A DNA stretch of 50,198 bases from a virus: the IMG/VR virus record IMGVR_UViG_3300043469_000556, positions 1-50,198 of that record. The stretch is one strand, 5' to 3'. A program made the position numbers and the translations under genes. Under the pieces are notes generated by a model. That model made no database searches, was not told the origin of the DNA, and saw only the letters and a program-made list of their open reading frames with translations. Numbering within the stretch: position 1 is the first letter of the stretch; each line of letters starts with the position of its first letter. Positions 34,425-50,198 of the stretch are shown here, piece by piece.

Positions 34425-37400
34425 ATGGCAAGTCAAAATATAAATCAGTATTATCGTCCAAATTGGTCTCTAAAACTTAATTTAGACTCTAGTGATATGT
34501 CTTTGACCTCAGATGAACAAGACTACAATCAAGAAGTTGTTTTTTCACCATATTTGATTGCTCAAACATATGGAGACAGACTCCCAATTTATTTTGACAT
34601 TAACAATCCTTTAAGTGTTCAAAATCAAACACTTTTGTATAAACAATACAATAATAATAATATTTTTGTATCTCAAAATTATTACAACCCAAATAATGAA
34701 GATTTAACTTGTTATTCATCATCAACATCATGTGATATTGGGTTAACAGGTATTGATAATGGATTAGTCGACCAAATGACCGGTGAAACGATAACATTTA
34801 CTAAAGGATTATACTCTGATTATTTGAAATTTAATAGAATGTACTATGACCGAAGACTTAAGTTACACCAAGTTACAGGTCACACTATGTCACCTAATGT
34901 AAGATTTTCAGGATTCAATAAAACCGTGTTATACGAAGTTGTTAGTAAATCAAGCCCTTTTGAAGGTAGGTACCACGAATTATACGGTGGGTTTTATCAA
35001 GGATTTTATAAGTTATTTGGGTTTGATTATGAAGTTTTCCCTGAAAGAATGAATAAAGGGTGGTCGGTTGAGATGGTATTAAAACCAAGATTATTCAACG
35101 AACACACTCCATTACCAAATGAAACAACTCTTAATGAAATTTATCCAAATAATAAAAATACTTTTTTTTATTTTGGGACTAGAGCTGAAAATAAATTTTA
35201 TCACCATGCAAGTGGTAGTCCATTATGTTTTTCAGGTTATAATAGAGTTACATCAGGTTTAACTGAACTACAAACATGTGCATGTTGTAATAGAACAATT
35301 ACGGATAGTAGATGTATTTTTGTTTATCCACCTAGGTCAGTGAATAATATCCATGACCCTCACGTTAATTATGGTTGTGGTAGTTGTAAGGGAGACCCAC
35401 AAAAAAAAATTACGTGTGGTTGTGATTGTAATTTAGACCCATGCGAAACTTGTGGATGGGAGTGTCAAACACACGTATGTAGTACGGTTATTGAACCAAC
35501 CCCAACACCTTCACCAACGCCAACCCCAATACCTGATTGTGAACTACCACCTGTTTGCTCTCCATCATGTGATGTTTGTACACCAACCACGACTTGTTAT
35601 AATTGTAATACAGGATTTACATCAATTGAAAATACTTGTGAGACAAACCCAATATATGATTCTATGTCAAACGCGTTATCTTTTAGATTATGTGGCGACC
35701 CAAAAAACCCTGGTATTGGTGTTAGAATGTTAAAATTTACAGGAGATTGTGTTACTACAGGCTCTTGTGAAACAAGTGGAATTACTTACACTACAGGACA
35801 CACTATTGTTGATTATTGTACGCCGCCAATTTACCCTACATGTTTATTAGAGAATCCTGCGTGGTTAGATGAGGAACATTGGTTCCAAGTAGACGCGGTA
35901 TGGGAAAGATATACATGGTTAGATACTTGCGATTTATGGTATCGAGGAGGACTTGGTGATATAACTGAAAAACTTTATTTAGAGTCACTAGCCAATAATG
36001 CATCGTCATTAATAACTGTACCATACACACAAATTGACTGTAAACCATCAGAACAAATCGAACTGGTCAGGTTAAATGAAAAATGGTTAATTGATAAATT
36101 ATACAGAAACGGAAGACTTAAAATTTATGTTAATGGTAAGTTATTCCATACTATAGAAAATTTTGAGGAAATCATCCCAAGAGGATTAGATACTGACAAA
36201 GAAAAACAAGTTGGGGTTCCGTTTAATATATCGTGGGGTGGGGGTACTCAAGGACTTAGAGAAAATTTAACTTTTTCATCAATAACACAACCTTACGGAC
36301 CATATATACAAGACCCTGAAAATTTCCCAATTAATGATTTATCAGGAACAACATTTAGTGGATTAAAAACTAATATATTAATTGAGCAAAATTTTGCGGG
36401 AACTTTTGATGGTGCTATTTCACAATTTAGAATGTATGTTACCCCATTATCGGCACCTGAGGTAAAACACAACTTTAATTTATTAAAAAATATTTTCAGA
36501 ATGTTTAATCCTGATTGTCCTGACTGCTCAACATCGGTTTGTTTACCTAACGACTTTACCTACAAAATATCCGATGAGACAACCACAACAACCACCACGG
36601 CAAATTTAACAACAACAACTACAACCTCAAATTTAACAACAACAACTACAACCACATATTCACCAACAACAACTACAACCACATATTCACCAACAACAAC
36701 TACAACCACATATTCGCCAACGCCTACACCAACAAAACAACCATCGGTAAGCTGGCCCCCAACTTCAACACCAACTTCAACACCAACACCTACGCCTACG
36801 CCTACGGTTTATACACCTGGAGAGTGTATTCGTTTTATTGATGAAGGAACGACTTGTAGTGGTACAATTGTATTACCATCAAATATAAATCCTTCACCTC
36901 AGATTAATGGTAAATCATCATATTATTTTACTTATTTTGCTCTCGCACCCCCCACCTTATTAATGAGGATTTCTTGGGATAATATAAATAATTATTGGAT
37001 TTTAGAGGATATGACCACATATTATCCATTACCTGACCCACTCGCATATCTTCCTATAAATAGTCCAACACCAATTGGGTCAATGGCTCAATGGGTGGCA
37101 CTACCAAGTCTTATAGGTAGTTGTCTATATGGTGGCGGTAGTGGTAGTGAGGGTCCACTTTTTCTTACGACTACCGGTATTGGAGATTGTTCACCTTGTT
37201 GCAAAACATTCCAATTATATAGTGGATTTGGACCTGGAACTGGTTCAACGTATCAAATTTTATATTGTGATAATACTGTTGAAGTTATTGATGTACCATT
37301 ATATGTTACCATAACTTATAAATGTGCTATCAATGTAATTAAACTTAATGGTGGAGGAACTGTAACAGTTGTTGATATCAATTGTGATTGTGACCCAAAT

Positions 37401-38072
37401 AATCTAACTTTATTTAATGAGCAAAAATTAGGTAGAATATTTATTGAGGACAAAAGAGATAACAAATATTTAATTCAAGATAAATTAACAATACCTAAAA
37501 CAACTATAACTAAAAAAGAATGGGATGGTAATGTTTGGTGGGGTAATCAAGGCAACACACCGCAATGTGTTGGTTATGCTTGGGCACATTGGATTTGTGA
37601 TGGGCCAATAACTCATAGAGGAGCTTTACCAATAATCCAACCATCGTTGATTTATCGTGAAGCTCAAAAGGTTGATGAATGGCCGGGTGAAAGGTATAAC
37701 GGTACGTCTGTTAGAGGTGGTGCAAAATATCTAATGAGTTCAGGTAAAATATCATCATACTTATGGGCGTTTGATATTAACACACTAATTAATACTGTGT
37801 TAAATGTTGGACCAGTCGTTGTTGGAACCAATTGGTATTATAATATGTTTTTTCCTAATAAAAATGGTTTAATTCGTTTAAGTGGACATATTGCGGGAGG
37901 ACACGCTTATGTTATTAATGGAGTGAACACCATCACAAAACAATTTAGAATTAAAAATAGTTGGGGGAAAGCTTGGGGAGTTTCAGGACATGCCTATATA
38001 AGTTTTTCAGATATGAAAAGACTAATAATAGAAAGGGGTGAAATCTGTTTAGCAATAGAGAAACCTTTCTAA
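34425..38072 (+). CDS. Large adhesin/tail fibre with C-terminal papain-like cysteine protease
   Basis: The product has 1215 residues. An N-terminal beta-rich part includes a LamG or concanavalin-like unit (GWSVEMVLKPRLF, then GRLKIYVNGKLFHTIENF and FDGAISQFRMYVTPLSAPEV, up to about residue 700), with an inserted cysteine-rich knot (CGCDCNLDPCETCGWECQ). A threonine stalk (TTTTTYSP repeats, about 720-770) and a Thr-Pro hinge (TPTPTPTP) follow. The last 190 residues are a C1A protease domain: Gln1042 six residues before Cys1048 (NQGNTPQCVGYAW), His1160 (GGHAYVING) and Asn1178 (IKNSWGKAWGVSG). All four catalytic positions and the Q-C spacing match papain. Its own promoter-like element and terminator bracket the gene. 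No signal peptide is present. Confidence 0.85.
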   Translation: MASQNINQYYRPNWSLKLNLDSSDMSLTSDEQDYNQEVVFSPYLIAQTYGDRLPIYFDINNPLSVQNQTLLYKQYNNNNIFVSQNYYNPNNEDLTCYSSSTSCDIGLTGIDNGLVDQMTGETITFTKGLYSDYLKFNRMYYDRRLKLHQVTGHTMSPNVRFSGFNKTVLYEVVSKSSPFEGRYHELYGGFYQGFYKLFGFDYEVFPERMNKGWSVEMVLKPRLFNEHTPLPNETTLNEIYPNNKNTFFYFGTRAENKFYHHASGSPLCFSGYNRVTSGLTELQTCACCNRTITDSRCIFVYPPRSVNNIHDPHVNYGCGSCKGDPQKKITCGCDCNLDPCETCGWECQTHVCSTVIEPTPTPSPTPTPIPDCELPPVCSPSCDVCTPTTTCYNCNTGFTSIENTCETNPIYDSMSNALSFRLCGDPKNPGIGVRMLKFTGDCVTTGSCETSGITYTTGHTIVDYCTPPIYPTCLLENPAWLDEEHWFQVDAVWERYTWLDTCDLWYRGGLGDITEKLYLESLANNASSLITVPYTQIDCKPSEQIELVRLNEKWLIDKLYRNGRLKIYVNGKLFHTIENFEEIIPRGLDTDKEKQVGVPFNISWGGGTQGLRENLTFSSITQPYGPYIQDPENFPINDLSGTTFSGLKTNILIEQNFAGTFDGAISQFRMYVTPLSAPEVKHNFNLLKNIFRMFNPDCPDCSTSVCLPNDFTYKISDETTTTTTTANLTTTTTTSNLTTTTTTTYSPTTTTTTYSPTTTTTTYSPTPTPTKQPSVSWPPTSTPTSTPTPTPTPTVYTPGECIRFIDEGTTCSGTIVLPSNINPSPQINGKSSYYFTYFALAPPTLLMRISWDNINNYWILEDMTTYYPLPDPLAYLPINSPTPIGSMAQWVALPSLIGSCLYGGGSGSEGPLFLTTTGIGDCSPCCKTFQLYSGFGPGTGSTYQILYCDNTVEVIDVPLYVTITYKCAINVIKLNGGGTVTVVDINCDCDPNNLTLFNEQKLGRIFIEDKRDNKYLIQDKLTIPKTTITKKEWDGNVWWGNQGNTPQCVGYAWAHWICDGPITHRGALPIIQPSLIYREAQKVDEWPGERYNGTSVRGGAKYLMSSGKISSYLWAFDINTLINTVLNVGPVVVGTNWYYNMFFPNKNGLIRLSGHIAGGHAYVINGVNTITKQFRIKNSWGKAWGVSGHAYISFSDMKRLIIERGEICLAIEKPF
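36594..36725 (+). repeat. 27-base tandem repeat in the adhesin stalk
   Basis: Units starting ACAACCACATATTC at 36648, 36675 and 36702, preceded by a diverged unit, encode a Thr-rich stalk with YSP interruptions. Confidence 0.85.
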
Positions 38073-38583: not shown

Positions 38584-38820
38584 ATGCCGAATTATCAAAG
38601 ACTGACCAAAAGACCCCAATCACTGATAGTATCGCCAGATGACATTGCACACATTGTTATTACGGGAGATACATTACAAAATCCTGCAGGTTCGTCATAC
38701 AAATCAAGTATACAACAAATTGTGTATGAGTTATTACTTGGTGGTTTATTGGTTATTAGTGGTCAAAATATTTTTTCAGGAATTAATGGTGCGTTAAGAA
38801 TAAGTGAGACTAATATATGA
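38584..38820 (+). CDS. Small putative fibre-associated protein
   Basis: The 78-residue product starts [20 protein letters not shown] and has an amphipathic C-terminal helix and strand ([20 protein letters not shown]). It overlaps the next gene by four bases (ATGA), so it is coupled to the Pro-Thr fibre, and a TATTTATAC element lies 15 bases upstream. Possibly an adaptor or chaperone for the fibre; unrecognised. Confidence 0.75.
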
Positions 38821-40157
38821 ACGAAACAATTGTAATATCTAGTACCAATTATGATGGTCAAATTGTTAATGTCGTATTTAAACCTGACAACAGTATGGAT
38901 GCGATTAATTTAGGTGATGTATTATTACCTTTTTTATTTGAACCCGACTTATTAATACCCCCAAGAGAAATTTATGGGACTTACACTATTTTATCGGTTA
39001 ATTCAGACTGTCCTAACTTCTTATCTGTTGCTAGACCAACACCGACACCAACACCAACGCCAACAAATACACCGACAAGTACACCGACGGTAACACCAAC
39101 AAATACTCCAACCCCAACTTTAGACCCATGTAAGGTTCCGACTCCAACCCCAACAGTTACCCCCACGCCAACCAATACTCCAACCAATACCCCAACACCA
39201 AGTGCAACTTGTACAAATCCTTGTGGTTGTCCTAAACCAAGTAAAACTCCAAGACCAACCCCAACTTCAACTCCTACTCCAACATATAACCCTTGTGCAA
39301 CATCTACACCAACACCAACACAAACACCAACAGTAACACCAACGCCTGTAACACCTACGCCAACAGTAACACCAACACCTGTAACACCTACACCAACAAA
39401 AACACCAACAAATACTCCTACCCCAACTAACACCCCAACGCCTACATCAACCACAACTAACACCCCAACACCTACATCAACCTTAACACCAACTCCTACG
39501 CCAACAGTACCCCCAATATTTGCTTATGTGGTCCCTGAACCTCAAGACAATGGTGGTTCATCAACATCGGCGTATAAATTAGGTAGTTATATGTATTACT
39601 TAAGTGATGGTGTTACTATAGATACTAATGTTGATTGGTATGGGTATAGTAGTGGTGGATGGGCTGACCCAACAAACCCTTACTATAGTTATATGATGGA
39701 TAAGTATATTTCTTACTCAGGATTTACTTTAGGTTCTGATGGTAATTTTATGACACCAGTAACATCATTTAATGGATTGATTAAACAATCCCCTGGTGTA
39801 GATACAGACGGATATGGATGTTCAATTAACCAATACACATTTGAAACTATTACAATTAGTACTTTAAATATAAACCCTAACGAATATTATTTTTATTCTG
39901 TGTGGATACCTTTATCAGGTGTTGGGGGTGTTATGAACAATATGACAATAGGTGTTGGATATATGTCATACCCTTGCAGTTTTGACCTTTTATTAACTCC
40001 GGCAACAACAATTTCAACTACTGACATTACAGTAACTTCAGGGGCGGCAATTCCTGCGGGAGTTTACCGTGTATTATATTGTTCCGTATCGACTTTATTA
40101 CCACCATCTACACCATCAACAAATAATTTTTATTTCAAAGGGGAGACTAAAACTTAA
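38817..40157 (+). CDS. Tail fibre with Pro-Thr repeat stalk
   Basis: The product has 446 residues. A short N-terminal beta domain (residues 1-72) is followed by a 150-residue stalk of TPTP, TNTP and TPTVTP repeats, broken by two small cysteine knots ([20 protein letters not shown]), and then a C-terminal beta domain of about 210 residues ([35 protein letters not shown]). Pro-Thr stalks hold domains apart as rigid rods and are common O-glycosylation sites in Bacteroidota, where DS/T(A/I/L/V/M/T) motifs are used. A receptor-binding role is inferred from position and architecture. Confidence 0.8.
39030..39515 (+). repeat. Pro-Thr coding repeat of the fibre stalk
   Basis: Degenerate CCAACA/CCAACG and ACACCA units encode about 150 residues of Thr-Pro repeats, interrupted twice by cysteine-containing segments. 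Confidence 0.9.
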
Positions 40158-40186: not shown

Positions 40187-43100
40187 ATGCCGTTTCCATA
40201 TAAAAATCCATTAAATGCTCAACTTTCAATAGGTCCTTATACTGTCGCTAGAAATTCAGTACAAGGCACAGATTACAGTGTGCTTGGTATTGGTGGATGG
40301 ATGGAAGTTGCTAATCTTAGTGACCTTTCATTAACCTTTTCGGGAATTGGGTTACAAACTTTATCCGCAAACACAATACCAATCAATTTATATATTGGTA
40401 ATGGGACACCATTTAACCCATCATACATTAATTTAAATTCGGATAATTTTTCATCAGGAAGAAGAAGAATTGGTATGATTGCTTATGTTAATGAAACAGG
40501 ATTTGCATATCAATATCAGATTGATAATTATGAAACACTATGGAACGCAGCCACAGGTGCAACAGGTACGGTTACATTTAACCCTTATGACACCCAAGTT
40601 AAAAATAATAGTGTTGCAGGTCAAAATTTTATAAATGCGTGGACAGGTTCAACTATTGAAGGTGTATCAGGGACTACAAGAACAAATGCTAGATGGAGAA
40701 TATTTCCTGAAGATTGTTGTTTAACAGGGGGAACTTATTTTTCTGCAACTAGTCAATTAGATTTATATAATAGTGATGGTACTACGGTAGTTGTTACAGG
40801 TATTACCGCATCAGGGGGTGGTTCAGGAACTTCAGGTTCAAGTGGGACATCCGGCTCAAGTGGTTCTTCAGGAACTAGCGGAACATCAGGTTCAAGTGGA
40901 AGTTCAGGGAATGACGGAAGTTCAGGAACTAGCGGAACAAGTGGTAGTAGTGGTTCTTCAGGAACTAGCGGAACATCTGGCTCAAGCGGAAGTTCAGGTT
41001 CAAGTGGAAGTTCAGGAAATAACGGTTCTTCAGGAACTAGCGGAACATCAGGGTCTAGTGGTATTAGTGGGGTGAACGGTTCTTCAGGAACTAGCGGAAC
41101 ATCAGGTTCAAGCGGTAGTAGTGGTTCTTCAGGTGATAGCGGTTCTTCAGGTTCAAGTGGAAGTTCAGGTTCAAGTGGTGATAGCGGTTCTTCAGGAACT
41201 AGTGGAACATCAGGTTCAAGCGGAAGTTCAGGTTCAAGCGGTTCTTCAGGAGATAGCGGTTCTTCAGGAACTAGCGGAACATCAGGCTCAAGCGGTTCTT
41301 CAGGAGATAGTGGTTCTTCAGGAACTAGCGGAACATCAGGTTCAAGCGGAAGTAGTGGTTCTTCAGGAACAAGTGGCTCAAGCGGAAGTTCAGGGAATGA
41401 CGGTTCTTCAGGAACATCTGGCTCAAGCGGAAGTTCAGGTTCAAGTGGTTCAAGCGGAAGTTCAGGGAATGACGGTTCTTCAGGAACTAGCGGAACATCA
41501 GGCTCAAGTGGAAGTTCAGGTTCAAGCGGTTCTTCAGGAGATAGCGGTTCTTCAGGGACTAGCGGAACATCAGGCTCAAGCGGTTCTTCAGGAGATAGTG
41601 GTTCTTCAGGAACTAGCGGAAGTTCAGGTTCAAGTGGTGATAGTGGTTCTTCAGGAACAAGTGGCTCAAGCGGAAGTTCAGGGAATGACGGTTCTTCAGG
41701 AACATCAGGTTCAAGTGGAAGTTCAGGTTCAAGTGGCTCAAGCGGAAGTTCAGGGAATGACGGTTCTTCAGGAACTAGCGGAACATCAGGTTCTTCAGGA
41801 ACTAGCGGAACATCTGGCTCAAGTGGAAGTTCAGGTTCAAGTGGAAGTTCAGGGAATGACGGTTCTTCAGGAACTAGTGGTTCAAGTGGAAGTTCAGGGA
41901 ATGACGGTTCTTCAGGAACTAGCGGAACATCAGGGTCTAGTGGTGTTAGTGGTTCTTCAGGAACAAGTGGCTCAAGCGGAAGTTCAGGGAATGACGGTTC
42001 TTCAGGAACTAGCGGAACATCAGGGTCTAGTGGAAGTTCAGGTTCAAGTGGTGATAGTGGTTCTTCAGGAACATCTGGCTCAAGTGGAAGTTCAGGTTCA
42101 AGTGGTTCAAGCGGAAGTTCAGGGAATGACGGTTCTTCAGGAACTAGCGGAACATCAGGGTCTAGTGGTATTAGTGGGGTAAACGGTTCTTCAGGAACTA
42201 GCGGAACATCAGGTTCAAGCGGTTCTTCAGGAACTAGCGGAAGTTCAGGTTCAAGTGGTGATAGTGGTTCTTCAGGAACTAGCGGAAGTTCAGGTTCAAG
42301 TGGTTCTTCAGGAACAAGTGGCTCAAGTGGAAGTAGTGGTTCTTCAGGAACAAGTGGCTCAAGCGGAAGTTCAGGGAATGACGGTTCTTCAGGAACTAGC
42401 GGAACATCTGGTTCAAGTGGAAGTTCAGGTTCAAGTGGTGATAGTGGTTCTTCAGGAACTAGCGGAACAAGTGGAACAGATGGTTCTTCAGGAACTAGCG
42501 GAAGTTCAGGTTCAAGTGGTGATAGTGGTTCTTCAGGAACTAGCGGAACAAGTGGTTCTTCAGGAGATAGTGGTTCTTCAGGAACTAGCGGAACATCTGG
42601 TTCAAGTGGAAGTTCAGGTTCAAGTGGTGATAGCGGTTCTTCAGGAACAAGTGGAACAAGTGGAATAGATGGTTCTTCAGGAACTAGCGGAACAAGTGGT
42701 ACAGATGGTTCTTCAGGAACTAGCGGAACAAGTGGGACAGATGGTTCTTCAGGAACTAGCGGAACAAGTGGTACAGATGGTTCTTCAGGAACTAGCGGAA
42801 GTTCAGGTTCAAGTGGTGATAGTGGTTCTTCAGGAACTAGTGGAAGTTCAGGTTCAAGTGGTGATAGTGGTTCTTCAGGAACTAGTGGAAGTTCAGGTTC
42901 AAGTGGTGATAGTGGTTCTTCAGGAACTAGCGGAACAAGTGGTTCAAGTGGTACAGATGGTTCTTCAGGAACAAGTGGTACAGATGGTTCTTCAGGAACT
43001 AACGGAACATCTGGCTCAAGTGGAACATCAGGTACAGATGGTTCTTCAGGAACTAGCGGAACAAGTGGTTCAAGTGGTACATCAGGCACAGATGGTTCTT

Positions 43101-46100
43101 CAGGAACTAGCGGAACAAGTGGCACAGATGGTTCTTCAGGAACTAGCGGAACAGATGGTTCTTCAGGAACAAGTGGAACAAGTGGAACAGATGGTTCTTC
43201 AGGAACTAGCGGAACAGATGGTTCTTCAGGAACAAGTGGAACAAGTGGAACAGATGGTTCTTCAGGAACTAGCGGAACAGATGGTTCTTCAGGAACAAGT
43301 GGAACAAGTGGAACAGATGGTTCTTCAGGAACTAGCGGAAGTTCAGGTTCAAGTGGTGATAGTGGTTCTTCAGGAACTAGCGGAACAAGTGGTTCAAGTG
43401 GTTCTTCAGGAGATAGTGGTTCTTCAGGAACTAGCGGAACAAGTGGTTCTTCAGGAGATAGTGGTTCTTCAGGAACAAGTGGTTCATCGGGTTCAAGTGG
43501 TACAGATGGTTCTTCAGGAACAAGCGGTTCATCGGGTTCAAGTGGTACAGATGGTTCTTCAGGAACAAGCGGAACATCAGGGTCTAGTGGAACAAGTGGT
43601 ACAGATGGTTCTTCAGGAACTAGCGGAACAAGTGGAACAGATGGTTCTTCAGGAACTAGCGGAACAAGTGGAACAGATGGTTCTTCAGGAACTAGCGGAA
43701 GTTCAGGTTCAAGTGGTGATAGTGGTTCTTCAGGAACTAGCGGAAGTTCAGGTTCAAGTGGTGATAGTGGTTCTTCAGGAACTAGCGGAACAGATGGTTC
43801 TTCAGGAACAAGTGGAACAAGTGGAACAGATGGTTCTTCAGGAACTAGCGGAACAAGTGGAACAGATGGTTCTTCAGGAACTAGCGGAACAAGTGGAACA
43901 GATGGTTCTTCAGGAACTAGCGGAACAAGTGGAACAGATGGTTCTTCAGGAACAAGTGGAACTAGCGGAACAGATGGTTCTTCAGGAACAAGTGGTACAG
44001 ATGGTTCTTCAGGAACTAGCGGAACAAGTGGTTCAAGTGGTACATCAGGCACAGATGGTTCTTCAGGAACTAGCGGAACAAGTGGCACAGATGGTTCTTC
44101 AGGAACAAGTGGCACAAGTGGAACATCAGGTTCAAGTGGAACAAGTGGGGGAAATGGTATATCTGCGGGACAAATTTATTATTTCAACGAAAGTCAGAAT
44201 AGTGATGTTTCAGGATATAAAGTGTTATCAACAGAACCATCAACCGCAACAACACAAACGGTTACAACAAATTTAACGGGAAATCAACAAAATGTTTTAG
44301 TTTCTGATTACATAACACCACAATTAGGTTTTTCGGTAATTCCAGGTGGTGTACAAAGATTTCATTTACACTATCTAAAACAAGCATCAAATGATAATAT
44401 AGATGCATATGTTGAAATTCAATTAACGGATTCAAGTGGAACTCCAATAGGTCCAACAATAACATCTAACATTGCCTTAATTGGTTGGGTAAGTAATGTG
44501 ATACCAGTTGAGGTAAATGTTGATATAGTAATACCGACAACAACAATTGACCCAACAAATAGAATGATTGTTAGGTTATATTTGAATAATGAGACATCAT
44601 CGTCAAAATCGGTAGTATATTATACTGAAGGTAATTCATATTATTCTTTTGTATTAACATCGGTTGGTGCAATTGCGGGTTCTTCAGGAACAAGTGGGTC
44701 ATCAGGTATAAGTGGTTCATCAGGTTCAAGTGGAAGTTCAGGTTCAAGCGGTGATAGTGGTTCTTCAGGAACTAGCGGAACAAGTGGTTCTTCAGGAGAT
44801 AGTGGTTCTTCAGGAACTAGCGGAACATCTGGTGGTTCAGGAAGTTCAGGTTCAAGTGGTTCTTCAGGAACTAGCGGAACAAGTGGTTCAAGTGGTTCTT
44901 CAGGAACTAGCGGAACATCTGGTAGTTCAGGAACTTCAGGGTCTAGTGGTATTAGTGGGGTGAACGGTTCTTCAGGAACTAGCGGAACAGATGGTAGTTC
45001 AGGAACTAGCGGAACAAGTGGTTCTTCAGGAGATAGTGGTTCTTCAGGAACTAGTGGAACATCAGGTTCAAGTGGAAGTTCAGGCTCAAGCGGAAGTTCA
45101 GGTTCAAGCGGTTCTTCAGGAACTAGCGGAACATCAGGTTCAAGTGGTACTTCAGGAACTAGCGGAACATCTGGCTCAAGTGGAAGTTCAGGTTCAAGTG
45201 GTTCTTCAGGAGATAGTGGTTCTTCAGGAACTAGTGGAACATCAGGTTCAAGTGGAAGTTCAGGCTCAAGCGGAAGTTCAGGTTCAAGTGGTACTTCAGG
45301 AACTAGCGGAACAAGTGGTTCAAGTGGAAGTTCAGGTTCAAGTGGTTCTTCAGGAACAAGCGGTTCAAGTGGAAGTTCAGGTTCAAGTGGAAGTTCAGGT
45401 TCAAGCGGTTCTTCAGGAACTAGCGGAACATCAGGTTCAAGTGGTTCTTCAGGAACTAGCGGAACAAGTGGTTCTTCAGGAACTAGTGGTTCAAGCGGTT
45501 CTTCAGGAACTAGCGGAACATCAGGTTCAAGTGGTACTTCAGGAACTAGCGGAACATCTGGCTCAAGTGGAAGTTCAGGTTCAAGTGGTTCTTCAGGAGA
45601 TAGTGGTTCTTCAGGAACTAGTGGAACATCAGGTTCAAGTGGAAGTTCAGGCTCAAGCGGAAGTTCAGGTTCAAGTGGTACTTCAGGAACTAGCGGAACA
45701 AGTGGTTCAAGTGGAAGTTCAGGTTCAAGTGGTTCTTCAGGAACAAGCGGTTCAAGTGGAAGTTCAGGTTCAAGTGGAAGTTCAGGTTCAAGCGGTTCTT
45801 CAGGAACTAGCGGAACATCAGGTTCAAGTGGTTCTTCAGGAACTAGCGGAACAAGTGGTTCTTCAGGAACTAGTGGTTCAAGTGGTTCTTCAGGAACTAG
45901 CGGAACATCAGGGTCTAGTGGTTCTTCAGGAACAAGTGGCTCAAGTGGAAGTTCAGGTTCAAGTGGTTCTTCAGGAACTAGCGGAACATCAGGTTCTTCA
46001 GGAACAAGTGGCTCAAGTGGAAGTTCAGGTTCAAGTGGTTCTTCAGGAACTAGCGGAACAAGTGGTTCAAGTGGAAGTTCAGGCTCAAGCGGTAGTAGTG

Positions 46101-49100
46101 GAAGTTCAGGTTCAAGCGGAACAAGTGGAAGTTCAGGTTCAAGTGGTACTTCAGGAACTAGCGGAACAAGTGGTTCTTCAGGAACTAGTGGTTCAAGTGG
46201 TTCTTCAGGAACTAGCGGAACATCAGGGTCTAGTGGTTCTTCAGGAACAAGTGGCTCAAGTGGAAGTTCAGGTTCAAGTGGTTCTTCAGGAACTAGCGGA
46301 ACATCAGGTTCTTCAGGAACAAGTGGCTCAAGTGGAAGTTCAGGTTCAAGTGGTTCTTCAGGAACTAGCGGAACAAGTGGTTCAAGTGGAAGTTCAGGCT
46401 CAAGCGGTAGTAGTGGAAGTTCAGGTTCAAGCGGAACAAGTGGAAGTTCAGGTTCAAGTGGTACTTCAGGAACTAGCGGAACAAGTGGTTCTTCAGGAAC
46501 TAGTGGCTCAAGTGGTTCTTCAGGAACTAGCGGAACATCAGGGTCTAGTGGTTCTTCAGGAACAAGTGGCTCAAGTGGAAGTTCAGGCTCAAGTGGTTCT
46601 TCAGGAACTAGCGGAACATCAGGTTCTTCAGGAACTAGCGGAACATCAGGTTCTTCAGGAACTAGCGGAACATCAGGTTCAAGTGGTTCTTCAGGAACTA
46701 GCGGAACATCAGGTTCTTCAGGAACTAGCGGAACATCAGGTTCTTCAGGAACTAGCGGAACAAGTGGAACATCAGGTTCAAGTGGTAGTAGTGGTTCTTC
46801 AGGAACTAGCGGAACAAGTGGTTCAAGTGGAAGTTCAGGCTCAAGCGGTTCTTCAGGAACAAGCGGTTCAAGTGGTAGTAGTGGAAGTTCAGGTTCAAGT
46901 GGTTCTTCAGGAACTAGCGGAACAAGCGGTTCAAGTGGAAGTTCAGGCTCAAGCGGTAGTAGTGGTTCTTCAGGAACTAGCGGAACATCAGGTTCTTCAG
47001 GAACTAGCGGAACAAGTGGCTCAAGTGGCTCAAGTGGCTCAAGTGGAAGTTCAGGTTCAAGTGGAAGTTCAGGTTCAAGTGGTTCTTCAGGAACAAGCGG
47101 AACAAGCGGAACATCAGGTTCTTCAGGAACTAGCGGTTCAAGTGGAAGTTCAGGTTCAAGTGGTACTTCAGGAACTACCGGAACAAGTGGTTATGATGGT
47201 AACGACGGGTCAAATAGCGGAAGATGGGCTTGGAAAGGAACAGGCGCTTATGCAGACCCTGGAGTGAACGGTTTTATTACAGACAATGCAAGTTTAGGTG
47301 GTGTTCAATACATTTCAATATCAAGATATGATATAAATGGAACTGACTATGGTAAATGGTTACTTGGTTTATATAATCTCTATGCTTCAGGTAACCAAGG
47401 ATATCTACAAATTACAAATGTAGGTAATAATTCAGTTATTGGTATATGGCCAATTATTGGTGTTGCTAATAGTGTTACTTATACAGATATTGCGGTATCC
47501 TTACCGTTAGCCGCAAATGGGTCTTTGGCCGGTAAAACGGTGTTTACAATTTCATGGGTCTTCAACGGTTTAAACGGTACTTCAGGTACTAGCGGTTCTT
47601 CAGGTTCAAGTGGTACTTCAGGAACTAGAGGAACATCAGGGTCTAGTGGAACTAGTGGAACATCAGGGTCTAGTGGTTCAAGCGGAACAAGTGGTACAGA
47701 TGGTTCTTCAGGAACTAGCGGAACATCAGGTTCTTCAGGAACTAGCGGAACATCAGGTTCAAGTGGTACTTCAGGAACAAATGGTTCTTCAGGAACTAGC
47801 GGAACAAACGGTTCAAGTGGTTCTTCAGGAACTAGCGGAAGTAGTGGTTCTTCAGGAACTAGCGGTTCAAGTGGTTCAAGTGGAAGTTCAGGTTCAAGCG
47901 GTTCTTCAGGTTCTTCAGGAACATCAGGTTCAAGTGGAAGTTCAGGTTCAAGTGGCTCAAGTGGTTCTTCAGGAACAAGTGGTTCTTCAGGAACTAGCGG
48001 AACATCAGGCTCAAGTGGAAGTTCAGGTTCAAGCGGTTCTTCAGGTTCTTCAGGAACTAGCGGAACATCTGGCTCAAGTGGAAGTTCAGGTTCAAGCGGT
48101 AGTAGTGGTACTTCAGGAACAAGTGGTTCTTCAGGAACTAGCGGAACATCAGGTTCTTCAGGAACTTCAGGTACTAGCGGTTCAAGTGGAAGTTCAGGTT
48201 CAAGTGGTTCTTCAGGGACTAGCGGAACAAGTGGTTCATCAGGAACTAGCGGGACTTCTGGCTCAAGTGGTAGTTCAGGTTCAAGCGGTTCAAGTGGTTC
48301 TTCAGGAACTAGCGGGACTTCTGGCTCAAGTGGTAGTTCAGGTTCAAGTGGAAGTTCAGGTTCAAGTGGAACTAGCGGAACGAGTGGTTCAAGTGGAAGT
48401 TCAGGTTCAAGCGGTAGTAGTGGTACTTCAGGTTCTTCAGGAACAAGCGGAACAAGTGGTTCAAGCGGTAGTAGTGGTTCTTCAGGAACTAGCGGTAGTT
48501 CAGGTTCAAGTGGTTCTTCAGGAACTAGCGGAACAAGTGGTTCAAGTGGTTCAAGTGGAAGTTCAGGTTCAAGCGGTAGTTCAGGCTCAAGTGGTTCTTC
48601 AGGAACTAGCGGTAGTTCAGGTTCAAGTGGAAGTTCAGGTTCAAGTGGTTCTTCAGGAACTAGCGGAACATCAGGTTCAAGTGGAACTAGTGGAACATCA
48701 GGTTCAAGCGGTAGTAGTGGTTCTTCAGGAACTAGCGGTAGTTCAGGTTCAAGTGGTTCTTCAGGAACTAGCGGTTCAAGTGGAACTAGCGGAACAAGTG
48801 GTTCAAGTGGTTCTTCAGGAACTAGCGGTAGTTCAGGTTCAAGCGGAAGTTCAGGCTCAAGTGGTTCTTCAGGAACTAGCGGTAGTTCAGGTTCAAGTGG
48901 AAGTTCTGGCTCAAGCGGTAGTAGTGGAAGTTCAGGTTCAAGCGGAACAAGTGGTTCTTCAGGAACTAGCGGTAGTTCAGGTTCAAGCGGTAGTTCAGGT
49001 TCAAGTGGAACTAGCGGAACAAGTGGCTCAAGTGGAAGTTCAGGTTCAAGCGGAAGTTCAGGTTCAAGTGGAACTAGCGGAACAAGTGGCTCAAGTGGAA

Positions 49101-50198
49101 GTTCAGGTTCAAGCGGTAGTTCAGGTTCAAGTGGAAGTTCAGGTTCAAGCGGTACAAGTGGTTCTTCAGGAACTAGCGGAACAAGTGGTTCAAGTGGAAG
49201 TTCAGGTTCAAGCGGTTCAAGTGGAAGTTCAGGTTCAAGTGGTTCTTCAGGAACTAGCGGAACATCAGGTTCAAGTGGAACTAGTGGAACATCAGGTTCA
49301 AGCGGTTCTTCAGGAACTAGTGGTTCAAGTGGAAGTTCTGGCTCAAGCGGTAGTAGTGGAAGTTCAGGTTCAAGCGGAACAAGTGGTTCTTCAGGAACTA
49401 GCGGAACAAGTGGAAGTTCAGGTTCAAGTGGAAGTTCAGGGTCAAGCGGAAGTTCAGGGTCAAGCGGTACTTCAGGAACTAGAGGAACTAGCGGAACATC
49501 AGGTTCTTCAGGAACTAGCGGAACAAGTGGTTCAAGTGGAAGTTCAGGTTCAAGTGGTTCTTCAGGAACTAGCGGAACAAGCGGTTCAAGTGGAAGTTCA
49601 GGCTCAAGCGGTAGTAGTGGTTCTTCAGGAACTAGCGGAACATCTGGTTCAAGTGGAAGTTCAGGTTCAAGCGGTAGTAGTGGTTCTTCAGGAACTAGCG
49701 GAACAAGTGGTTCAAGTGGAAGTTCAGGCTCAAGTGGTTCTTCAGGAACTAGCGGAACAAGTGGTTCAAGTGGAAGTTCAGGTTCAAGTGGTTCTTCAGG
49801 AACTAGCGGAACAAGCGGTTCAAGTGGAAGTTCAGGCTCAAGTGGTTCTTCAGGAACTAGTGGAACTAGAGGAACATCAGGTTCTTCAGGAACTAGCGGA
49901 ACAAGTGGTTCAAGTGGAAGTTCAGGTTCAAGTGGTTCTTCAGGAACTAGCGGAACATCTGGTTCAAGTGGAAGTTCAGGTTCAAGCGGTAGTAGTGGAA
50001 GTTCAGGCTCAAGCGGTAGTAGTGGTTCTTCAGGAACTAGCGGAACAAGTGGTTCAAGTGGAAGTTCAGGTTCAAGTGGTTCTTCAGGAACTAGTGGAAC
50101 TAGAGGAACATCAGGTTCTTCAGGAACTAGCGGTTCAAGTGGAAGTTCAGGTTCAAGTGGTTCTTCAGGAACTAGCGGTTCAAGTGGAAGTTCAGGTT
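40187..50198 (+). CDS. Giant collagen-like Gly-X-Y fibre (3' partial)
   Basis: The ATG at 40187 opens a single frame with no stop to the right edge, at least 3337 residues. Residues 1-206 are a beta-rich head (MPFPYKNPLNAQLSIGPYTV, a WMEVANLSDLSLTFSG strand pair). From about residue 207 the chain is Gly at every third position, with X-Y almost only Ser or Thr (GSS, GTS) plus GND, GDS, GTD, GIS, GVN and rare GTR. Two non-collagen beta islands interrupt it, near residues 1322-1502 and 2336-2463. Proline is nearly absent from the repeats. Phage collagens form trimeric stalks; this one may be a very long host-contact fibre. The DNA repeat makes several other frames look open, but only this one is coherent across the islands. 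Confidence 0.9.
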   Translation, partial: MPFPYKNPLNAQLSIGPYTVARNSVQGTDYSVLGIGGWMEVANLSDLSLTFSGIGLQTLSANTIPINLYIGNGTPFNPSYINLNSDNFSSGRRRIGMIAYVNETGFAYQYQIDNYETLWNAATGATGTVTFNPYDTQVKNNSVAGQNFINAWTGSTIEGVSGTTRTNARWRIFPEDCCLTGGTYFSATSQLDLYNSDGTTVVVTGITASGGGSGTSGSSGTSGSSGSSGTSGTSGSSGSSGNDGSSGTSGTSGSSGSSGTSGTSGSSGSSGSSGSSGNNGSSGTSGTSGSSGISGVNGSSGTSGTSGSSGSSGSSGDSGSSGSSGSSGSSGDSGSSGTSGTSGSSGSSGSSGSSGDSGSSGTSGTSGSSGSSGDSGSSGTSGTSGSSGSSGSSGTSGSSGSSGNDGSSGTSGSSGSSGSSGSSGSSGNDGSSGTSGTSGSSGSSGSSGSSGDSGSSGTSGTSGSSGSSGDSGSSGTSGSSGSSGDSGSSGTSGSSGSSGNDGSSGTSGSSGSSGSSGSSGSSGNDGSSGTSGTSGSSGTSGTSGSSGSSGSSGSSGNDGSSGTSGSSGSSGNDGSSGTSGTSGSSGVSGSSGTSGSSGSSGNDGSSGTSGTSGSSGSSGSSGDSGSSGTSGSSGSSGSSGSSGSSGNDGSSGTSGTSGSSGISGVNGSSGTSGTSGSSGSSGTSGSSGSSGDSGSSGTSGSSGSSGSSGTSGSSGSSGSSGTSGSSGSSGNDGSSGTSGTSGSSGSSGSSGDSGSSGTSGTSGTDGSSGTSGSSGSSGDSGSSGTSGTSGSSGDSGSSGTSGTSGSSGSSGSSGDSGSSGTSGTSGIDGSSGTSGTSGTDGSSGTSGTSGTDGSSGTSGTSGTDGSSGTSGSSGSSGDSGSSGTSGSSGSSGDSGSSGTSGSSGSSGDSGSSGTSGTSGSSGTDGSSGTSGTDGSSGTNGTSGSSGTSGTDGSSGTSGTSGSSGTSGTDGSSGTSGTSGTDGSSGTSGTDGSSGTSGTSGTDGSSGTSGTDGSSGTSGTSGTDGSSGTSGTDGSSGTSGTSGTDGSSGTSGSSGSSGDSGSSGTSGTSGSSGSSGDSGSSGTSGTSGSSGDSGSSGTSGSSGSSGTDGSSGTSGSSGSSGTDGSSGTSGTSGSSGTSGTDGSSGTSGTSGTDGSSGTSGTSGTDGSSGTSGSSGSSGDSGSSGTSGSSGSSGDSGSSGTSGTDGSSGTSGTSGTDGSSGTSGTSGTDGSSGTSGTSGTDGSSGTSGTSGTDGSSGTSGTSGTDGSSGTSGTDGSSGTSGTSGSSGTSGTDGSSGTSGTSGTDGSSGTSGTSGTSGSSGTSGGNGISAGQIYYFNESQNSDVSGYKVLSTEPSTATTQTVTTNLTGNQQNVLVSDYITPQLGFSVIPGGVQRFHLHYLKQASNDNIDAYVEIQLTDSSGTPIGPTITSNIALIGWVSNVIPVEVNVDIVIPTTTIDPTNRMIVRLYLNNETSSSKSVVYYTEGNSYYSFVLTSVGAIAGSSGTSGSSGISGSSGSSGSSGSSGDSGSSGTSGTSGSSGDSGSSGTSGTSGGSGSSGSSGSSGTSGTSGSSGSSGTSGTSGSSGTSGSSGISGVNGSSGTSGTDGSSGTSGTSGSSGDSGSSGTSGTSGSSGSSGSSGSSGSSGSSGTSGTSGSSGTSGTSGTSGSSGSSGSSGSSGDSGSSGTSGTSGSSGSSGSSGSSGSSGTSGTSGTSGSSGSSGSSGSSGTSGSSGSSGSSGSSGSSGSSGTSGTSGSSGSSGTSGTSGSSGTSGSSGSSGTSGTSGSSGTSGTSGTSGSSGSSGSSGSSGDSGSSGTSGTSGSSGSSGSSGSSGSSGTSGTSGTSGSSGSSGSSGSSGTSGSSGSSGSSGSSGSSGSSGTSGTSGSSGSSGTSGTSGSSGTSGSSGSSGTSGTSGSSGSSGTSGSSGSSGSSGSSGTSGTSGSSGTSGSSGSSGSSGSSGTSGTSGSSGSSGSSGSSGSSGSSGTSGSSGSSGTSGTSGTSGSSGTSGSSGSSGTSGTSGSSGSSGTSGSSGSSGSSGSSGTSGTSGSSGTSGSSGSSGSSGSSGTSGTSGSSGSSGSSGSSGSSGSSGTSGSSGSSGTSGTSGTSGSSGTSGSSGSSGTSGTSGSSGSSGTSGSSGSSGSSGSSGTSGTSGSSGTSGTSGSSGTSGTSGSSGSSGTSGTSGSSGTSGTSGSSGTSGTSGTSGSSGSSGSSGTSGTSGSSGSSGSSGSSGTSGSSGSSGSSGSSGSSGTSGTSGSSGSSGSSGSSGSSGTSGTSGSSGTSGTSGSSGSSGSSGSSGSSGSSGSSGSSGTSGTSGTSGSSGTSGSSGSSGSSGTSGTTGTSGYDGNDGSNSGRWAWKGTGAYADPGVNGFITDNASLGGVQYISISRYDINGTDYGKWLLGLYNLYASGNQGYLQITNVGNNSVIGIWPIIGVANSVTYTDIAVSLPLAANGSLAGKTVFTISWVFNGLNGTSGTSGSSGSSGTSGTRGTSGSSGTSGTSGSSGSSGTSGTDGSSGTSGTSGSSGTSGTSGSSGTSGTNGSSGTSGTNGSSGSSGTSGSSGSSGTSGSSGSSGSSGSSGSSGSSGTSGSSGSSGSSGSSGSSGTSGSSGTSGTSGSSGSSGSSGSSGSSGTSGTSGSSGSSGSSGSSGTSGTSGSSGTSGTSGSSGTSGTSGSSGSSGSSGSSGTSGTSGSSGTSGTSGSSGSSGSSGSSGSSGTSGTSGSSGSSGSSGSSGSSGTSGTSGSSGSSGSSGSSGTSGSSGTSGTSGSSGSSGSSGTSGSSGSSGSSGTSGTSGSSGSSGSSGSSGSSGSSGSSGTSGSSGSSGSSGSSGSSGTSGTSGSSGTSGTSGSSGSSGSSGTSGSSGSSGSSGTSGSSGTSGTSGSSGSSGTSGSSGSSGSSGSSGSSGTSGSSGSSGSSGSSGSSGSSGSSGTSGSSGTSGSSGSSGSSGSSGTSGTSGSSGSSGSSGSSGSSGTSGTSGSSGSSGSSGSSGSSGSSGSSGTSGSSGTSGTSGSSGSSGSSGSSGSSGSSGSSGTSGTSGSSGTSGTSGSSGSSGTSGSSGSSGSSGSSGSSGSSGTSGSSGTSGTSGSSGSSGSSGSSGSSGSSGTSGTRGTSGTSGSSGTSGTSGSSGSSGSSGSSGTSGTSGSSGSSGSSGSSGSSGTSGTSGSSGSSGSSGSSGSSGTSGTSGSSGSSGSSGSSGTSGTSGSSGSSGSSGSSGTSGTSGSSGSSGSSGSSGTSGTRGTSGSSGTSGTSGSSGSSGSSGSSGTSGTSGSSGSSGSSGSSGSSGSSGSSGSSGTSGTSGSSGSSGSSGSSGTSGTRGTSGSSGTSGSSGSSGSSGSSGTSGSSGSSG
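40808..44149 (+). repeat. Collagen-like coding repeat, block 1
   Basis: Nine-base Gly-X-Y codon triplets built from GGT TCT TCA, GGA ACT AGC, GGA ACA TCA and relatives. This block holds nearly all Asp-containing triplets: GND and GDS early, GTD later. Confidence 0.95.
45110..45910 (+). repeat. 387-base segmental duplication inside block 2
   Basis: The run beginning TTCTTCAGGAGATAGTGG at 45202 recurs at 45589 with the same order of triplets for most of the length. The period is 43 nine-base units (129 residues). Confidence 0.75.
45840..46600 (+). repeat. 315-base segmental duplication inside block 2
   Basis: The marker GGGTCTAGTGGTTCTTCAGG occurs at 45911, 46226 and 46541, giving two full copies and part of a third. 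The period is 35 nine-base units (105 residues). Confidence 0.75.
47575..50198 (+). repeat. Collagen-like coding repeat, block 3 (to window edge)
   Basis: Almost pure Ser/Thr triplets with scarce GTR and GTN. After about 47830 I saw no Asp codon. A GGAACTAGAGG marker at 49862 recurs at 50096 (234 bases, 26 units). The repeat continues beyond the window. Confidence 0.95.

Follow-up and report, generated by a model that had tools for sequence, protein, structure and literature searches.

Collagen-like proteins have been described from several phages. Among the closest described systems are the E. coli prophage side-tail proteins EPclA-D which, like the gene presented below, are phage fibres with Gly-X-Y repeats placed between non-collagenous modules (PMC3368898). 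Their shaft lengths typically differ by multiples of three (PMC3368898). For viral collagens in general, the same source gives 22.1% Pro and 35.3% Asp/Glu at the X position and 38.1% Arg/Lys at the Y position (PMC3368898). A review describes bacteriophage collagens as stretches of about 18 residues within capsid proteins (PMC8968730), and triple collagen repeats have been noted in pelagimyophages (PMC7029224).

The gene analysed here lies in a virus record of 50,198 bases (G000), referred to as the window, i.e., the whole stretch of DNA that was analysed; G and L numbers are our handles for records and loci. The record belongs to a virus of bacteria that is known from environmental DNA alone. 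A preliminary description of this DNA had claimed that a single plus-strand frame stays open for over 10 kb and leaves the window, that glycine falls at every third residue and that the repeats are almost proline-free, and all three claims were borne out. The frame has an ATG start and zero stops, and its three Gly-X-Y runs (372 + 282 + 292 = 946 triplets) do not miss a single glycine (Table 1). Pro, Lys and Glu were counted over all three runs and occur 0 times each in the 946 triplets. The description had also assigned Ser or Thr to both X and Y, which holds for X (Ser 532, Thr 361, Asp 26, Asn 12, others 15) and fails for Y, which is nearly always Ser and only once Thr (Ser 887, Asp 44, Asn 10, Arg 4, Thr 1). 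The PF01391 profile search that it had proposed gave 69 matches in the window, 68 of them above the curated cut-off of 27.2 bits. The longest run of 372 triplets compares with at most 11 in 500 residue shuffles of the same protein. Over positions 40817-50197, islands included, the other five frames contain 16 to 603 stops and the fibre frame 0. An antisense ORF of 1120 aa (window 40753-44115, minus strand) is read as a by-product of the codon composition of the repeats.

Table 1. Features of the fibre gene and its upstream neighbours, in window positions
Feature	Position	Strand	Description
Neighbour gene	34425..38072	+	1215 aa, C-terminal papain-like peptidase domain; PF00112, phrog_16701
Upstream partner gene	38817..40157	+	446 aa, Pro/Thr-rich low-complexity middle, mucin-like
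Whole collagen-like fibre gene	40187..50197	+	3337 aa, 3' end beyond window; PF01391
Head, N-terminal module of uncultured-phage gene family	40187..40816	+	aa 1-210; recurs in many loci
First Gly-X-Y run	40817..44164	+	aa 211-1326, 372 triplets
Island 1, predicted jelly-roll	44165..44677	+	aa 1327-1497 (171 aa); recurs beside collagen repeats
Second Gly-X-Y run	44678..47215	+	aa 1498-2343, 282 triplets; copy number uncertain
Island 2	47216..47566	+	aa 2344-2460 (117 aa); 40% identical to island of the 4766-aa protein of G001
Third Gly-X-Y run	47567..50197	+	aa 2461-3337, 292 complete triplets, cut by window end

All 946 glycine codons are GGN, with a heterozygosity of 0.585 at the third base and 0 at the first two bases. 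The case for selection on glycine rests on this count within the gene, since the triplet-wise alignment that was used to compare relatives pairs Gly with Gly by construction. Under this alignment, synonymous/other differences between the window and L012 (83 triplets) amount to 18/0 at Gly, 1/15 at X and 20/3 at Y. The corresponding values are 17/0, 1/7 and 17/2 for L013 (76 triplets), 21/0, 10/18 and 20/7 for L015 (71 triplets), and 19/0, 12/28 and 10/18 for L017 (55 triplets). For a pair of relatives, L018 and L209 (610 triplets), they are 152/0, 110/135 and 123/110. A codon-wise alignment yields 1 to 14 Gly mismatches per comparison, which are read as register slips. Together with the count within the gene, these comparisons show a frozen glycine and a drifting X, with Y conserved among the closest relatives and less so among more distant ones. 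The best reading is that the glycine register of this tandem-repeat shaft would be under selection.

A gene of this kind calls for a check of its assembly. Five sister contigs from other IMG assemblies (L009, L010, L011, L014, L016) have a head 100% identical to that of the window and do not differ from it at any base of the first 3007-3127 nt of the gene; all five then end within a 154-bp exact repeat (43124/43187). Beyond 43313, no second assembly of the window phage was present among the fetched contigs, a set from which very near records may be missing. The window moreover carries two exact duplications, one of 395 bp (45101/45488) and one of 358 bp (45834/46149), in a region for which this contig is the only one among those fetched, which leaves the copy number uncertain from about 45.1 to 46.5 kb. 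Both observations would suit an artefact in which repeats were duplicated or misjoined, yet such an origin of the giant length is very improbable: the sister contigs confirm the first 3.0-3.1 kb of the gene, islands 1 and 2 are both in frame and both have homologues, and long shafts recur with nearly the same length in separate contigs (701 or 699 triplets in L018, L022, L023 and L025; 783 or 784 triplets in ten contigs). A search for the 3' part of the window phage by means of the G001 tip domain returned the G001 and G002 lineages only. The giant length as such is well supported by the sequences of complete relatives.

These relatives indicate that the window gene is not a one-off. In the survey, which excluded pieces of the window itself (L001-L008) and ORFs of fewer than 50 triplets, 21 ORF rows had both ends and at least 500 triplets; two of the rows are one contig and the same phage is often present in several contigs. 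The longest, of 4766 aa, is a complete gene with a stop in G001 (240,759 bases). Its head is 64% identical to that of the window and its fibre comprises 1432 triplets in all, with an unbroken run of 1168. Other complete genes encode 3989 aa (L142), 3616 aa (L129), 3343 aa (L138), 2796 aa (L220) and 2733 aa (L144), and two groups are made up of the genes of 2550-2553 aa in ten contigs (L060) and of 2429-2435 aa in four contigs (L018). Shaft lengths differ two-fold between close relatives, as the heads of L018 and L209 are 98% identical and their shafts count 701 vs 1432 triplets. This suggests that shaft length is nearly neutral or tuned fast. The fibre gene also appears to be a place where virome assemblies tend to break, since 69 of 102 head-family contigs end inside it, 59 of these within a Gly-X-Y run. 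A tblastn search of the repeat against phages returned nothing and is uninformative, as the low-complexity filter was on.

The same type of shaft is common to many phages. Over the 84 collagen-bearing head-family loci, a redundant set, only 8 Pro and 5 Lys were counted in 22,983 triplets (45,966 X/Y positions). When ORFs with at least 50 triplets were merged if their non-repeat parts shared more than 30% of 10-mers, Pro stayed below 1% in 51 of 64 clusters, a set that was gathered via the window's own modules and so does not sample phage collagens at large. At Y, the most frequent residue is Ser in 43 of these clusters, Gln in 12, Asn in 6 and Thr in 3, and X is the more variable of the two positions in 46 of the 64. 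Nine of the 13 clusters with at least 1% Pro are of the Gln type. In sister collagen classes, likewise nearly Pro-free, Y is nearly fixed as Gln (81-93%; L184, L189, L190, L199) or as Thr (95-99%; L178, L193). A separate observation concerns L138 (5027-15058), in which, after a run of 234 triplets, ATS replaces a Gly-X-Y triplet 18 times as counted by eye, often 9 triplets apart. These breaks form a natural set of Gly-to-Ala interruptions.

How such a shaft would hold together is the question raised by its composition. The usual, though not strictly required, stabilisers of PF01391 collagens, Pro/Hyp or KGE/KGD charge pairs, are absent from the window repeats. On the host-guest scale, both Ser at the Y position and Thr at the X position rank as poor formers of a triple helix. 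In described collagens, stability gains strongly from salt bridges such as KGE and KGD (PMC7824840); Scl2.28 is low in Pro and rich in Lys and Asp, and hydration by polar residues has been named as a stabiliser of bacterial collagens (PMC8968730). By analogy, hydration of Ser and Thr is a possible stabiliser of the shaft.

Glycosylation of Ser and Thr, which the preliminary description had put forward as one possible stabiliser, was not supported as the special stabiliser: glycosyltransferase genes are present, yet they are also found in collagen-free relatives. PF00535 occurs in 14 of 18 records, the collagen-free G003 and G005 among them. The GlcNAc-transferase family PF11397, encoded 5-6 kb ahead of the fibre gene in both G001 and G002, was considered as a collagen-linked function and rejected, as it tracks phage lineage and not collagen. 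Among 37 records overall, it is present in 15 of 23 collagen-bearing and 5 of 8 collagen-free head-family records (two of these five being near-copies), in none of 5 records that have collagen but do not belong to the head family, and in G017, which shows no head and has no collagen. The window record, a fragment, has no PF11397 match. It is possible that phage glycosyltransferases modify the fibre.

At 0.286 nm per residue, arithmetic gives about 812 nm for the part of the shaft that is seen and 1229 nm for the G001 shaft. A length in the micrometre range would require that the repeats make up a single uninterrupted triple helix. The rise itself is in line with an E. coli prophage collagen of 111 residues, which measures about 30 nm by electron microscopy (PMC3368898). 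It is tentatively proposed that a widespread clade of environmental phages carries particle-attached ropes of up to about 1.2 micrometres, made of a collagen without Pro and charge pairs in which Y is near-constant and which would be held together solely by hydrated polar residues at Y or by a phage-made modification. In this reading, Y stays nearly constant, as Ser here and as Gln, Asn or Thr in sister families, with X free to drift, a generalisation that is as yet rather doubtful. It is equally speculative that the fibre would be many times as long as the phage.

Two other structures have to be weighed against a triple helix. The repeat could be a flexible, largely disordered mucin-like linker of Ser, Thr and Gly that serves as a tether or hydrated brush. 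These three residues suit a soluble linker, the repeats lack Pro, Lys and Glu, the shafts of close relatives differ two-fold in length, and the gene upstream likewise has a Pro/Thr-rich low-complexity stretch. A linker has, however, no need for Gly at every third residue, which is kept in 946 of 946 triplets although third bases are well mixed. Moreover, L129, another Pro-poor Gly-X-Y shaft, ends in an S74 chaperone, a domain that helps trimers to fold, and the linker is considered rather unlikely. Secondly, Gly at every third residue also fits polyproline-II bundles, in which short strands are joined by turns. Glycine-rich genes of the Gly_rich_2 family indeed lie downstream of the fibre in G001, yet the unbroken runs of 372 triplets here and 1168 in G001 make a polyproline-II bundle of the type of the polyglycine-rich adhesin of phage S16 or the snow flea antifreeze protein improbable. 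The latter two proteins are non-twisting polyproline-II bundles (PMC11869133).

The Gly-X-Y runs are interrupted by two islands. For island 1, 90 related loci were found, and of the best 80, which were kept, 78 are in ORFs with Gly-X-Y runs, on many different N-termini. Its single-chain model is an all-beta fold with a pLDDT of 94.1. The nearest solved structure is the C-terminal jelly-roll of a CocE-type hydrolase (Z 13.5, rmsd 3.0, 162 residues aligned), and two further CocE-type jelly-rolls lie within 1 Z of the best. The folds are alike, although identity is only 17% and the island lacks the hydrolase domain. Lesser matches are birnavirus VP2 (Z 9.7), CBM15 (9.3), CBM35 (9.2), Cry toxins (8.9) and CBM6 (8.4). 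Because VP2 and Cry toxins score about like the CBMs, sugar binding by island 1 is only a guess. A profile search against solved structures gave one weak match, to a glycoside hydrolase (E 0.34). Neither island has a Pfam match over the cut-off (best for island 1: DUF3280, E 0.077) or a match in PHROGs, and one scan of genome contigs for host or prophage relatives of island 1 produced 24 pattern matches, none confirmed. Going by the predicted model, a lectin-like bead is at least as likely as a trimer cap. For island 2, a pattern search with the island alone found no relative; its copy in G001 was spotted by eye and confirmed by BLASTP.

The head is likewise shared. A single-sequence search gave 41 related loci and a profile search 426 (435 pattern matches), of which the best 80 were kept. 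Gly-X-Y runs follow the head in 23 of the 41 single-sequence loci and not in the other 18, which have other shafts, encode short proteins (277 aa and up) or lie on contigs that end too early. When the two sets are combined, 84 of 102 loci have at least 8 triplets in a run, a count that includes many contigs of the same phage. By hmmscan, the head matches no Pfam family up to E 0.1; among PHROGs it has a single weak match (E 0.021), with a family that has no assigned function. A weak profile match to chain 2 of 1gff, which holds phage G4 capsid proteins (E 0.018), was taken as chance. No match was obtained by tblastn of the head, island 1 and the 446-aa partner against 50,697 phage records. The architecture is modular, and since the head and island 1 recur with varied partners, head, shaft, bead and tip appear to be interchangeable modules.

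A C-terminal ending of the partner type is found on the gene directly before the head-family gene in the window, L209, L018, L026 and L034. This Pro/Thr-rich partner gene adjoins a Pro-free shaft. The papain-like protein of 1215 aa encoded further upstream also occurs in phages of Stenotrophomonas, Xanthomonas, Gordonia and Streptomyces.

As to the phage, the window contains T4-type genes for terminase, gp20 portal, gp21 prohead protease and gp23 capsid. Its capsid (41-46% identity) and terminase (27-30%) proteins are best matched by those of LR756508 (an uncultured phage) and of two T4-like phages, Mel-JY01 of Microcystis and immuto of Flavobacterium. Further indications of function come from the tips of relatives. 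In L129, which has island 1 and a shaft of 974 triplets, the S74 chaperone is C-terminal (E 7.4e-15) and PHROG tail-fibre families match there. The tip of L138, which has the same head family and island 1, shares 56.9% identity over 122 residues with the 'putative tail fiber-like protein' of immuto and also resembles hypothetical proteins from Synechococcus phages; the PHROG families that it matches have no assigned function. No PHROG family matches the L154 tip or L028, and L026 matches one family only, of unknown function. The many tail-fibre matches of L034 say little, because they lie mainly on its Gly-X-Y stretches. G001 and G002 have glycine-rich genes downstream of the fibre, two of those in G001 matching Gly_rich_2. 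Three tandem glycine-rich genes are similarly placed in L209 (17733-20000), the third cut by the locus end; two match Gly_rich_2 (PF21722).

Altogether, with a probability of roughly 0.7, the gene is read as encoding the tail fibre or an adhesin in a phage of T4-like type, composed of a particle-bound head, a Pro-free Gly-X-Y shaft, jelly-roll beads and a C-terminal tip. From this we infer a location on the virion, a trimeric triple helix and a role at the receptor. The N-terminal head would fix the fibre to the particle, which is a guess since the head is poorly modelled (pLDDT 55). The most likely arrangement is that three chains would coil into a thin, elongated rod of collagen type pointing toward the host surface. 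The rod would hold the beads and an adhesive tip, encoded beyond the window, away from the particle, and island 1 may be a bead that contacts carbohydrates.

Triple-helical shafts would be collagens that lack proline, hydroxyproline and salt bridges. As such they would offer a direct test of the requirements of the helix and might provide a material for production in bacteria without modifying enzymes. If the shafts are not triple-helical, some other structural reason is required for a register kept strictly through nearly a thousand triplets. The fibre genes are also a blind spot, as virome assemblies tend to cut these phages there.

Compared to known systems, the gene stands apart in several respects. 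The preliminary description had stated that known phage collagens are usually far shorter, and the collagen parts of E. coli prophage proteins in the rows listed indeed measure 63-157 aa (PMC3368898), against at least 2838 residues in the window gene. The EPcl proteins have Pro at 48.1% of X and Arg/Lys at 31.0% of Y positions (PMC3368898), and the window repeats are without Pro, Lys and Glu. The N-terminal PfN domain of EPcl (PF08400) was not found on the window head (hmmscan against Pfam, up to E 0.1). Of the phages with the best capsid and terminase matches, immuto (Immutovirus) and LR756508 have no PF01391 match, unlike the window phage, and Mel-JY01 has seven, none of them in a frame longer than 1016 aa. 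Island 1 has counterparts in three BFVD proteins of uncultured Caudovirales phages annotated as 'Collagen triple helix repeat' (A0A6J5N627, A0A6J5SWS4, A0A6J5NH96; TM 0.94-0.96, 43-58% identity). These are shorter than the 3337 aa seen in the window, with 620-1235 residues as listed, and one may be a fragment of a longer entry. In the accessible parts of the open-access literature that was searched, no giant or Pro-free phage collagens and no near-constant Y were found, and the excerpts of PMC7077304, PMC9611531 and PMC12607003 hold nothing on such fibres. Phage collagens are known as such; measured against these partial sources, what is new here is the length of the shaft, the absence of Pro and the near-constant Y residue.
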